Part shown: positions 25,437-60,500 of the stretch, one piece after another | Numbering within the stretch: the stretch's first letter is position 1 | How the letters are laid out: every line of letters begins with the position of its first letter | NCBI RefSeq assembly: GCF_000428105.1 | Contig: NZ_ATZH01000003.1 | Coordinates: 124,001 to 188,000 of the forward strand | Source: Bacteroides pyogenes DSM 20611 = JCM 6294 | Lineage (GTDB): Bacteria > Bacteroidota > Bacteroidia > Bacteroidales > Bacteroidaceae | DNA: 64,000 nt | Reading direction: 5' to 3' | Made by a program: the position numbers and the translations under genes | Notes under the pieces: generated by a model | What the model was told of the DNA's origin: nothing | Database searches by the model: none | Seen by the model: the letters and a program-made list of their open reading frames with translations, nothing else

Positions 25437-25489
25437 ATTTTGTTTATGGATTGCATTATTTCTTCTCTGTAATCGCGGCTGCAACAAAT
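25437..25489 (+). ncRNA. candidate structured leader before rpsD (S4 leader)
   Basis: In the 116-base rpsK-rpsD spacer, ATTTTG (25437-25442) pairs with CAAAT (25485-25489) and TTGCA (25451-25455) with TGCAA (25480-25484). This gives a two-part stem with an internal loop. S4 binds its own leader in several bacterial groups, and I recall an S4 leader motif being described in Bacteroidia, but I cannot confirm a match here. Confidence 0.4.
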
Positions 25490-56059: not shown

Positions 56060-57157
56060 TTATTGGTTTGCCGCGAATCTTCTCGCCTGTTCTTCTATCA
56101 ATTCTTTGTCGTCGAAGTAATTGATCTTCATTGCTTTCTTTACGTCCGATAATGTGTCGGCGGCAGCGGCTCTCGCCACTTCGCATCCTTTTCGCAGCAT
56201 CTCGTAAATGCCTGGAATGTCTTTTTCGAATTCCTTCCGGCGGTTGCGGATGGGCTCCAAAGTCTCTTGCATGATGGCGTTCAGGAACCGTTTCACTTTT
56301 ACGTCTCCCAAGCCGCCGCGCTGGTAGTGGGCTTTTAACTCCGCCAGATTCGGATAATCGGGCAGGTAACGCTCGAAATGTTCGGGGCGGCTGAAAGCGT
56401 CGAGATAAGTGAAGACCGTGTTTCCTTCGATCTTGCCCGGGTCTTGCACGCGAATGTGTCCCGGATCGGTGTACATACTCATCACTTTCTTTTGTATCTC
56501 GTCTGCCGTATCCGACAGGTAGATGCAGTTGCCCAGCGATTTGCTCATTTTCGCTTTGCCATCGGTCCCCGGCAAACGCAGGCACGCGGCATTTTGAGGC
56601 AGCAGTATTTCAGGCTCTACCAATGTTTCACCATAGATATGGTTGAAGCGGCGAACAATCTCGCGTGCCTGTTCGAGCATCGGTTCCTGATCTTCCCCCA
56701 CGGGCACGGTTGTAGCGCGGAAAGCCGTGATGTCGGCCGCCTGACTGATGGGATACGTAAAGAATCCTACGGGGATGCTGGCTTCGAAGTTGCGCATCTG
56801 TATCTCGGTCTTCACTGTCGGGTTGCGTTGCAGGCGCGACACGCTGACGAGATCCATGTAATAAAAGGTGAGTTCGCACAGTTCGGGAATCTGCGATTGG
56901 ATGAAAATAGTAGCTTTCTCCGGATCCAATCCGCAGGCAAGATAGTCGAGGGCTACTTCAATCACATTCTGACGCACCTTTTCCGGATTGTCGATATTGT
57001 CGGTCAATGCCTGTGAGTCGGCAATGAAAACAAACATCTTGCTGTAGTCGCCGGCATTCTGCAACTCCACTCTTCCTTTCAGCGAACCCACGTAGTGCCC
57101 GATATGAAGTCGTCCGGTAGGGCGGTCGCCTGTCAATATGATTTTTTCTTTCTTCAT
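56060..57157 (-). CDS. trpS: tryptophan--tRNA ligase
   Basis: Encodes 365 residues of a class I synthetase. HIGH is at residues 18-21 ([11 protein letters not shown]), and KMSKS is in [11 protein letters not shown] near residue 205. [14 protein letters not shown] binds substrate. It charges tRNA-Trp. It is transcribed away from carB, with a minus-strand -7 box 29 bases before the start. Slightly longer than the short B. stearothermophilus type. Confidence 0.97.
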
Positions 57158-57220: not shown

Positions 57221-57259
57221 ACCGTCTAACTTCATTTTGAGAAAAAGAAAGGGTTTCTT

Positions 57260-57290
57260 TTTGCTATGTGCGAAAAAAGTCGTTACTTTG
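57260..57290 (+). promoter_or_regulatory. carB promoter
   Basis: TTTG at 57260-57263, 20 bases, then TACTTTG at 57284-57290 (one base shorter than the TAnnTTTG box), followed by CGCC. Transcription would begin near 57297, just before the leader open frame at 57313. Confidence 0.6.
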
Positions 57291-57312
57291 CGCCGAATAA
57301 GAAAAACTGAGA

Positions 57313-57444
57313 ATGAATCAACAGGAAGTCAGAAGTAAGTATTACCTCCATTCGGACGATTTTTATCCGGATACGGCAAGCTTCTTCTTTTTTTCTGAAA
57401 AAACGATATGTAAGTTCTTTGGTAATGCGTTAGTCCTTCTTTAA
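57313..57444 (+). CDS. carB leader peptide (PyrL-like), candidate
   Basis: A 43-residue frame begins MNQQEVRSKYYLHSDDFYPD and continues TASFFFFSEKTICKFFGNAL before VLL. The four Phe codons (57382-57393, TTC TTC TTT TTT) form the U-rich part of a pyrimidine run just before a terminator. The frame ends at 57444, inside the terminator hairpin. In E. coli PyrL (44 residues, also FFF-rich) the same layout lets UTP level set RNA polymerase pausing and hence ribosome interference with the terminator. The sequence is not homologous in any way I can show; the similarity is of architecture. Confidence 0.55.
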   Translation: MNQQEVRSKYYLHSDDFYPDTASFFFFSEKTICKFFGNALVLL

Positions 57445-57462
57445 GGGTAACGCATTTTTTTT
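57424..57462 (+). terminator. attenuator terminator in the carB leader
   Basis: AATGCGTTA (57424-57432) pairs perfectly with TAACGCATT (57448-57456), followed by T to 57462. It lies 40 bases before the carB start and downstream of the carB promoter, so it must be passed to express carB. A competing pairing, GTATTACC (57339-57346) with GGTAATGC (57421-57428), would disrupt its left arm. Confidence 0.85.
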
Positions 57463-57502
57463 ATATGTACCTTAGGTATAAAACATATTTATAACAAAAA
57501 AG

Positions 57503-60500
57503 ATGGAAAAGGAAATGAAGAAAGTCCTCGTGTTAGGTTCCGGGGCTCTTAAAATCGGACAGGCCGGTGAGTTCGACTACTCCGGCTCGCAAGCGCTCAA
57601 GGCGTTGAAAGAAGAAGGTATCAGTTCGGTATTGGTCAATCCGAATATCGCCACCATTCAGACTTCGGAGGGGATTGCCGATAAAGTTTATTTCCTTCCC
57701 GTGACTACTTATTTCGTAGAAGAAATTATAAAGAAAGAGCGTCCGGACGGCATCCTGTTGGCGTTTGGTGGGCAAACGGCCCTGAACTGCGGTGCCGAAC
57801 TCTACACCAAAGGCGTTCTCGACAAGTATGGAGTGAAAGTGTTGGGAACCTCAGTAGAAGCCATTATGTATACTGAAGACCGCGACTTGTTTGTGAAAAA
57901 GCTGGATGAAATAGGCATGAAGACTCCCGTCAGCCAAGCGGTAGAGAATATGAAAGATGCCATTGAAGCTGCCGAGCGTATCGGATTTCCCGTGATGGTT
58001 CGTTCGGCTTATGCGCTTGGCGGACTGGGTAGCGGTATCTGCCGGGATAAGGAGGAGTTTGTCAAACTGGCGGAAAGCGCTTTTGCTTTTTCGAAACAGA
58101 TATTGGTGGAAGAGTCGTTGAAAGGGTGGAAAGAGATAGAGTTCGAAGTCATCCGCGATACCAACGACCATTGCTTCACGGTGGCGAGCATGGAGAATTT
58201 CGATCCGCTCGGCATCCATACCGGAGAGTCGATAGTGGTAGCCCCTACCTGTTCGCTCGACGATAAGGAGCTGAAGATGCTTCAGGAATTGTCTACCAAA
58301 TGTATCCGCCATCTGGGTATTGTAGGCGAATGTAACATTCAGTATGCGTTCAATTCAGAAACCGACGACTATCGTGTGATTGAAGTGAACGCCCGCCTGA
58401 GCCGTTCTTCGGCGTTGGCTTCGAAGGCTACCGGATATCCGCTGGCTTTTGTCGCCGCCAAAGTGGCTCTCGGATACACGCTCGATCAGATCGGCGAGAT
58501 GGGAACGCCGAATTCGGCTTATGTGGCTCCGCAACTCGATTATTATATTTGCAAAATTCCGCGCTGGGACTTGACAAAGTTTGCCGGAGTATCGCGCGAG
58601 ATTGGCTCCAGCATGAAGTCGGTAGGCGAGATCATGTCTATCGGACGTTCGTTTGAAGAAATCATCCAGAAAGGTTTGCGCATGATCGGACAGGGAATGC
58701 ACGGCTTCGTAGGTAATAACGGAGTGCGTTTCGATGATTTGGAGAAAGAGCTTTCATGCCCTACCGACTTGCGTATTTTCGCTCTGGCGCAGGCGTTGGA
58801 AGAGGGATATACTATCGAGCGTATCCACGAGCTGACGAAGATCGATCCCTGGTTCCTCGGCAAGCTGAAAAACATTGTAGACTATAAAGAGAAGCTGTCT
58901 GCCTACAACAAAGTGGAAGACATACCGGCTGACGTGATGCGTCAGGCTAAGGTGCTCGGCTTCTCCGACTTCCAGATTGCCCGCTTTGTGCTGAACCCTG
59001 CAAGCAATATGGAGAAAGAAAACTTGATGGTACGTGCGCATCGTAAAGCCTTGGGTGTGCTTCCTGCAGTGAAACGCATCAACACCGTAGCTTCGGAACA
59101 TCCCGAACTGACCAACTATTTGTATATGACGTATGCGGTGGAAGGGTATGACGTGAATTATTATAAAAATGAGAAATCGGTAGTCGTGCTGGGTTCCGGC
59201 GCTTACCGTATCGGTAGCTCCGTTGAGTTTGACTGGTGTTCGGTGAATGCCGTACAAACCGCACGTAAACTGGGCTATAAGTCGATCATGATCAACTATA
59301 ATCCGGAAACCGTATCTACCGACTATGATATGTGCGACCGGCTCTATTTCGACGAGCTTTCTTTCGAACGTGTACTCGACGTAATCGACCTTGAGCAGCC
59401 TCGTGGGGTAATTGTTTCTGTGGGCGGACAGATTCCGAACAATCTTGCCATGAAACTGTATCGCCAGTCTGTGCCGGTGCTGGGAACTTCTCCACTCTCT
59501 ATCGATCGTGCCGAAAACCGCAACAAATTCTCGGCGATGCTCGATCAGCTCGGTATCGACCAGCCGGCATGGCAGGAGCTTACCAGCCTCGAAGATGTGA
59601 AAGATTTTGTTGACAAGGTAGGATATCCTGTGCTGGTGCGCCCTTCTTATGTGCTTTCGGGTGCGGCGATGAACGTCTGCTACGATGACGAAGAATTGGA
59701 GAACTTCTTGAAGATGGCTGCCGAAGTGTCGAAAGAATATCCGGTGGTGGTTTCGCAATTCCTCGAAAATACGAAAGAGATTGAGTTTGACGCCGTGGCG
59801 CAGAACGGTGAGGTGGTAGAATATGCCATCTCCGAACACGTAGAGTTTGCCGGCGTACACTCCGGTGATGCCACGCTGGTGTTCCCTGCGCAGAAGATTT
59901 ACTTCGCCACTGCCCGTCGCATCAAGAAAATCAGCCGTCAGATAGCGAAAGAACTGAATATCTCGGGGCCGTTCAATATTCAGTTTCTTGCCCGCAACAA
60001 CGAGGTGAAGGTGATAGAATGCAACCTGCGTGCTTCTCGCAGTTTTCCGTTTGTGTCGAAAGTACTGAAGCGCAATTTCATCGAAACGGCTACGCGAATC
60101 ATGCTTGATGCTCCTTATACCCGTCCGGATAAATCGGCATTCGATATCGACTGGATCGGAGTGAAAGCTTCTCAGTTCTCTTTCTCCCGTCTGCACAACG
60201 CCGATCCTGTGCTGGGTGTAGACATGTCTTCTACCGGCGAGGTGGGATGTATCGGCGACGACTTTTCGGAAGCGTTGCTCAATGCCATGATTGCTACCGG
60301 ATTCACCATTCCCGAAAAGGCGGTGATGTTTTCTTCCGGTGCGGTGAAGTCGAAAGTCGACCTGCTCGATGCCAGCCGTATGCTTGCCGCCAAAGGCTAC
60401 CGGATTTACGGAACTGCGGGAACGGCCGCTTTCCTGAATGCTCACGGCGTAGATACTACACCGGTTTACTGGCCTGATGAGAAACTGGGAGCGGAAAACA

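Follow-up and report, generated by a model that had tools for sequence, protein, structure and literature searches.

Attenuation at the pyrBI operon of Escherichia coli, which is mediated by the leader pyrL, is not known to need an antiterminator. Excerpts of PMC10135430 describe the accepted mechanism: ample UTP lets the polymerase proceed to the terminator and stop there, and at low UTP it pauses within the U-rich leader while the ribosome keeps the terminator hairpin from forming. The pyrL pause is independent of NusA, and compensatory hairpin mutants failed to restore the pause in the portion of PMC9291695 cited here, so the role of the hairpin is uncertain even in E. coli. The E. coli carAB genes are comparable in that they encode carbamoyl-phosphate synthase and answer to pyrimidines; they differ in being controlled at initiation, including UTP-dependent reiterative transcription, and attenuation is stated not to be involved at the arginine-responsive P2 of E. 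coli nor at any other arginine gene (both from sections of PMC6245113).

Within the same phylum as our locus, leader frames thought to attenuate transcription have been proposed for amino-acid operons of Flavobacterium psychrophilum and described as small open reading frames in long 5' untranslated regions of B. thetaiotaomicron; in the parts of these sources cited (PMC9723704, PMC7366714) they precede amino-acid operons or other genes and include no carB leader. The Bacteroid-trp motif (RF01692) is likely a cis-regulatory RNA in Bacteroidetes, according to a section of PMC2864571, but it gives no gathering-score match to the carB leader. The open literature that we searched contained, among the matches listed, no description of a carB attenuator in Bacteroidota.

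We examined the carB leader within a 64,000-nucleotide stretch of the Bacteroides pyogenes DSM 20611 genome, hereafter the window. As in E. coli pyrBI, the leader frame (44 codons as annotated in E. coli, 43 here) overlaps the terminator, and the pyrBI leader likewise runs through a hairpin (GCGTC..GACGC), a gap of 10 nt and the tract TTTTTCTTCCC to the terminator of a pyrimidine synthesis gene. The two differ in the gene (pyrBI vs carB), in the phylum, in the distance from tract to terminator stem (19 nt by hand count in E. coli vs 27 nt in the window), and in an AATTT near the start of pyrBI, which the window does not have. The distance from ATG to tract is 60 nt in pyrBI when counted by hand; with the looser tract of our script the ATG-tract distance, hairpin gap and tract-stem distance become 53, 3 and 16 nt. 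The pyrBI locus gives no match to our carB-leader RNA model at E 0.1. We estimate at roughly 70%, on the strength of sequence and comparative analysis, the probability that the carB leader (57283-57462) works as a PyrL-type attenuator which reads UTP through a race between the polymerase and the first ribosome. The carB leader likely works like pyrL on a new gene and in a new phylum, as a candidate rather than a proven member of the pyrL class.

Organization of the carB locus

The window genome (3.43 Mb, 99.97% complete) carries a carB whose nearest named relatives are from Bacteroides, and this gene is flanked by divergent trpS and, on its other side, by a convergent gene. Sequence and comparison give the order promoter-like box, frame, hairpin, U-rich tract, terminator stem and carB (Table 1). 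The promoter-like sequences, the 43-codon frame, the codon run TTC TTC TTT TTT TCT with its four Phe codons, the terminator and carB all lie where the initial annotation had placed them. The predicted peptide of 43 amino acids is MNQQEVRSKYYLHSDDFYPDTASFFFFSEKTICKFFGNALVLL. The terminator has a perfect 9-bp stem (57424-57432 with 57448-57456), a loop of 15 bases and a T tail reaching 57462, and the carB ATG at 57503 follows the tail by 40 bases. Directly upstream of the tract is a hairpin that had gone unnoticed in the initial annotation; it is separated from the tract by 8 nt, and the tract from the terminator stem by 27 nt.

Table 1. Coordinates within the window of carB, its leader elements and trpS
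Feature	Position	Strand	Remarks
Predicted promoter	57258..57290	+	TTTTTG 57258-57263; -7-like TTACTTTG 57283-57290
Leader reading frame, 43 codons	57313..57444	+	ATG 57313, stop 57442-57444 inside terminator loop
Predicted pause hairpin, 7 bp, upstream of tract	57350..57372	+	covarying helix in relatives; fold
U-rich pyrimidine tract CTTCTTCTTTTTTTCT, predicted UTP-sensitive pause region	57381..57396	+	
Predicted intrinsic terminator (attenuator), 9-bp stem and T tail	57424..57462	+	left arm within leader frame
carB, carbamoyl-phosphate synthase large subunit, 1073 aa	57503..60724	+	TIGR01369 1446 bits, cut-off 1027
trpS, divergent, outside the switch	56060..57157	-	TIGR00233 249.5 bits, cut-off 176.75

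The comparative material consisted of 153 regions upstream of type-1 carB genes from two collections, 130 of them distinct, with one locus (L135) left out because no carB start was found by motif. A promoter box, an ATG and a terminator were recognized by script in 75 of the 130, and these fall into 58 long leaders (ATG-to-stem distance 88-111 nt, with L133 set by hand) and 17 short ones (30-52 nt). In an alignment of 56 rows, from which the identical segments L082 and L140 had been dropped beforehand, the TTTG of the promoter is invariant. An A at position -3 before the leader ATG occurs in 49 of 75 leaders, including that of the window; according to the section of PMC6847099 cited, an A at this place favors translation in one species of Bacteroidetes.

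Conservation of the terminator and the upstream hairpin

The terminator segment of the window folds at -14.1 kcal/mol vs -4.6 for shuffled sequences (z -5.2), and 0 of 200 shuffles were as good. A simple consensus scan, which shows no excess of terminators or promoters in this region, missed it because the scan allows loops of up to 8 bases and the loop here has 15. The window hairpin, folded alone, is no better than shuffles (z -0.4), and its support comes from comparison. When hairpin and terminator are taken together in the 56-row alignment, 91% of the cells are paired and 9 of 17 pairs show changes on both sides (4 of 8 in the hairpin, 5 of 9 in the terminator); cells changed on both sides number 39 vs 11.1 in shuffled alignments and at most 19 when the pairing is slid. 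The terminator sequence varies from AATGCGTTA..TAACGCATT to GACGCTGTTTCC..GGAGGCAGCGTT, yet its pairing is kept.

The hairpin alone has 81.7% of its cells paired in the same alignment. Where the hairpin is broken in divergent rows, the script gives an alternative stem in L032, L152, L066 and L156 (for example CGTCCCGTTGGGACG in L032) and no convincing replacement in L041 and L145. In a crude search the best upstream hairpin ended 5-15 nt ahead of the tract in 43 of the 58 long leaders, with a median gap of 10 nt; this search chose other stems in some rows, and in L007, L041, L095 and L123, where no hairpin was found, it set the tract too far upstream, so that medians refer to the remaining 54 leaders and counts to all 58.

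The competing stem that had been suggested as a block to the terminator (57339-57346 with 57421-57428) fared differently. The pairing is possible in the window, but in relatives only 66.7% of its cells are paired, which is about what shuffles give, and we rejected it as a conserved element.

The pyrimidine tract and its spacing

The twelve tract columns of the alignment (111-122) are 84-100% pyrimidine, and the residues they encode vary among F, S, L, P and V. In single sequences the tract is often no better than shuffles (0.017 in the window). Codon choice within the tract was set aside as evidence, because the tract was picked for its pyrimidines and the test is circular. The distance from the end of the tract to the terminator stem has a median of 25 nt in long leaders.

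These columns bear on the idea of a classical leader-peptide attenuator in which the four Phe codons of the window would be the sensor of phenylalanine. We regard this as scarcely credible, since the tracts of L109 and L145 have no in-frame Phe codon, the others mix F, S, L, P and V, and carB is not a Phe gene. Amino-acid attenuators of the trp/his/phe type in general were rejected as well: there is no conserved run of codons for a product, and the antiterminator that had been proposed is not conserved.

The placement of the tract speaks to a broader alternative, in which the attenuator depends on translation and senses its general state (initiation rate, ribosome supply or growth) instead of UTP; the outcome would always be set by the ribosome on the short frame, and the tract would be only a pause that paces the polymerase. 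The short leaders (17 of 75, and L180, L183 and L184 outside the genus) are in favor of it, as they mostly keep a frame that abuts or overlaps the terminator and have neither tract nor hairpin. However, the script sets the tract at 62-76 nt from the ATG in 54 of the 58 long leaders (with its start at exactly 68 nt in 36), 5 of the 8 leaders beyond the genus have it at 68-69 nt, and carB belongs to pyrimidine synthesis. General sensing of translation is the most serious of the alternatives, though in our judgment an unlikely one beside sensing of UTP.

Coding signal in the leader frame

In 56 of the 57 long leaders tested, the leader frame stays free of stop codons up to at most 9 nt from the terminator stem; the same holds for the other two frames in 6 and 3, and shuffles lead one to expect 7.4. 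Among 16 representatives of less than 75% identity the corresponding numbers are 16, 4 and 3, with 2.4 expected. Both tests were made without L133, whose terminator had been corrected by hand (the 16 are 17 representatives less this one). The ATG chosen was the first whose frame reaches the terminator, if there is any, a choice that could favor the leader frame; nevertheless, the plain first ATG already suffices in 56 of 58 long leaders, and the two rules give different starts in just three leaders, L097, L143 and L158, the last of them short. The conservation on which the original reading depended is therefore borne out for long leaders by the open frame together with the covarying terminator and the pyrimidine-rich columns.

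The substitutions depend on evolutionary distance. Across the first 54 nt of 13 close relatives, differences summed over pairs amount to 94, 68 and 334 at the three codon positions, so that the third position dominates. Among near relatives, again summed over pairs, codons with a single change are synonymous in 234 cases and non-synonymous in 97. In 21 more diverged leaders of the MQ type the sums are 858, 1082 and 1369, with 413 synonymous and 742 non-synonymous changes, which points to a weaker constraint on the peptide. The apparent constraint among near relatives would suit a terminated leader that acts chiefly as a stand-alone small RNA or as a working small protein, with control of carB secondary. 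This is very improbable, given that more distant leaders differ greatly in their peptides but retain frame and terminator, that every strong model match in the genus and 8 of 8 outside it adjoin carB, and that no Rfam family matches at gathering score.

The position of the stop relative to the stem edge is +10 in 22 leaders, +2 in 13 and elsewhere in the rest. Such variation fits a ribosome that serves as a block rather than a peptide that matters, and the leader peptide itself is probably a by-product. The same region was considered for sensing of arginine, by which a ribosome short of arginine would stall at the CGT in the left arm of the terminator and hold the terminator open. In 36 of the 58 long leaders the stem's CG belongs to an Arg codon of the leader frame, the peptides of L177 and L183 end in MR, and carB also feeds arginine. 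On the other hand, the window frame reads GCG TTA at this place and has no Arg codon there, the frame of B. fragilis (L003) stops before the CGT site although those of its near relatives do not, and the peptides have no run of Arg codons. We consider arginine sensing very unlikely.

Proposed mechanism

Under the UTP-sensing reading that we favor, polymerase supplied with ample UTP would cross the tract fast, the terminator would fold and transcription would end near 57462. With scarce UTP the polymerase would stall in the tract, allowing the ribosome on the leader frame to catch up; when transcription resumes, the ribosome would cover the left arm of the terminator and carB would be transcribed. 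No antiterminator hairpin would be required. What the sequences show is the parts, their order, their conservation and the open frame; termination by the hairpin and T tail, pausing in the tract, UTP as the signal and the ribosome as the block are inferred from the parallel with pyrL. The earlier proposal that carB is preceded by a PyrL-like attenuator, conserved in Bacteroidota, is retained as regards frame, tract, terminator and the likeness to the E. coli layout, with UTP as the presumed signal, and is modified by removal of the competing stem.

If the switch works in this way, the carB leader would offer a native test of whether ribosomes closely trail RNA polymerase in Bacteroidota. The wider and more tentative proposal given below would imply tight coupling of transcription to translation in a phylum that lacks Shine-Dalgarno leaders. 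A narrow literature search returned, among the matches listed, no paper on transcription-translation coupling in this phylum.

Distribution of long, short and absent leaders

A conserved leader frame with a predicted terminator is present before carB in many Bacteroides and in some related bacteria. We built a covariance model from 56 leaders, including that of the window, and searched 99 genomes of the genus. It gave 56 matches, most of which are the rows that built the model; 54 lie 29-236 nt (median 45) before a type-1 carB. A type-1 carB is listed for 74 of the genus genomes; 54 of these have a match and 20 have none. The two matches away from a listed carB (G086:C112 and G004:C16) have an E of 0.0077, and the latter resembles an unrelated hairpin.

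Among 295 genomes of the order the model found 10 matches. Two are in the genus itself; the other eight, with E values of 1e-5 to 8e-3, are spread over five further families and in every case sit 34-68 nt before a carB frame, a position that nothing in the model encodes. Under the same ATG rule the leader frame extends to the terminator in 8 of 8, compared with 2 and 2 for the other two frames. Five of the eight have their pyrimidine run preceded, at 9-12 nt, by a differently spelled hairpin (of 4 bp only in L178), and the remaining three (L180, L183 and L184) are shorter and have no such run. A second draw of 148 genomes contained 14 type-1 carB loci outside the genus, five of which match the model (in the same genomes as five of the eight); by eye, one more is leader-like (L196), one is cut by a contig end (L190) and seven have no leader. 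The other carB paralogue matched the model at 0 of 14 loci.

The short leaders consist of frame and terminator and have neither hairpin nor tract. Their frames (L026 of Phocaeicola massiliensis, L027, L018, L020, L021, L034, L150, L161-L163 and others) mostly span 8-22 codons and end near or in the terminator, and row L134 has no real frame. No leader was found by script in 55 of the 130 upstream regions, among them Prevotella- and Paraprevotella-like loci, several Phocaeicola and rumen loci; 12 of the 55 have no promoter box near carB, and some of the negatives are due to a contig end or a wrong terminator call. Because short versions have no hairpin or tract and some type-1 carB genes are leaderless, we do not claim UTP sensing for all of them.

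On a tree of 81 CarB proteins (24 with long leaders, 12 with short ones and 45 without by script, L025 and L060 being called short by eye), the leader forms require at least 12 changes vs 31 when shuffled. Leader forms thus cluster on the tree and still need several changes, and we conclude that the module was gained, shrunk or lost several times. If the attenuator reading is true, the mixture of long, short and missing leaders along a single gene tree would reveal how attenuators are built and dismantled.

CarB, CarA and the carbamoyl-phosphate pathway

The window genome has one CarB match and two genes with a carbamoyltransferase domain, of which one is of the aspartate type and one of the N-succinylornithine type by reading of the sequences. 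Since a single CarB faces two such genes, it probably feeds arginine as well as pyrimidines. The description of carB as the first pyrimidine step, with the gene itself confirmed, is accordingly to be widened by a likely role in arginine supply. The aspartate-type gene has no leader or terminator by eye. An argG-like gene in the window genome is below the family cut-off, which is passed in 0 of 99 genus genomes.

No match to the N-terminal domain of CarA (PF00988) was found in the window genome. This domain is absent from 12 of 99 genus genomes (the window's included) and from 4 of 63 high-quality ones, and CarA is present in 87 of 99. The lone CarB may use free ammonia. Where coordinates were compared (G014, G026, G039 and G087), CarA adjoins a second carB about 65% identical to that of the window, and in G014 carA lies behind a 627-codon frame that appears amidophosphoribosyltransferase-like by eye. 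In rumen Bacteroidaceae (L048, L051, L052, L054-L058 and L064) type-1 carB follows a gene whose end resembles this G014 gene, with no carA between them, by eye. Under the wider and more tentative proposal given below, the switch would govern a CarB that works in some genomes without any CarA.

The predicted transcript start

For 42 of the 58 long leaders the predicted start carries the sequence AATTT, as it does for 7 of the 17 short ones and, among leaderless loci that have a promoter box, for 3 of 43. A control set of other promoter-like sites before large frames, examined over a slightly different range of positions, has it in 14 of 287, and an earlier, looser control has AAATTT in 11 of 309; these controls are pattern matches, and the starts are predicted rather than mapped. 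The start region of our locus, CGCCGAATAAG, has no start of the A-A-U-U-U type, and this element is therefore outside the main claim. In relatives (for example L004, L009 and L066) the AATTT start resembles starts with UTP-dependent reiterative transcription.

A wider proposal, which we offer tentatively and hold somewhat less probable than its negation, is that a UTP-sensing carB switch based on ribosome versus polymerase evolved in Bacteroidales independently of enterobacteria and was kept in several families, with a complete pause hairpin and U-tract module. Most long leaders of Bacteroides would add to this an AAAUUUU start, which could stutter with UTP in the manner of pyrBI. If the leader works as proposed, the same metabolite-sensing trick would have arisen twice, in distant phyla and on different genes of one pathway, and the leader could become a nucleotide-responsive control part in gut Bacteroides.

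Other RNA elements

The carB leader has no Rfam match at gathering score, and those of seven relatives have none up to E 1. A match of the window to BTnc201 (22.1 bits vs 105 required) was rejected; it is absent in the seven relatives and is therefore taken as chance. The sole gathering-score match in the window is an S4-Bacteroidia ribosomal protein leader at 25449-25481 on the + strand (46.5 bits). At two loci of the other carB paralogue (L199 and L200) terminator-like hairpins with T runs are seen by eye about 30 nt before carB, and these may be attenuators or the ends of upstream genes. The G086 match away from carB (L213, G086:C112:38252-38410) looks like a decayed copy of a carB leader, as its hairpin-tract part is recognizable by eye and it has no terminator and no large frame behind it; the same genome also has a leader before its carB.
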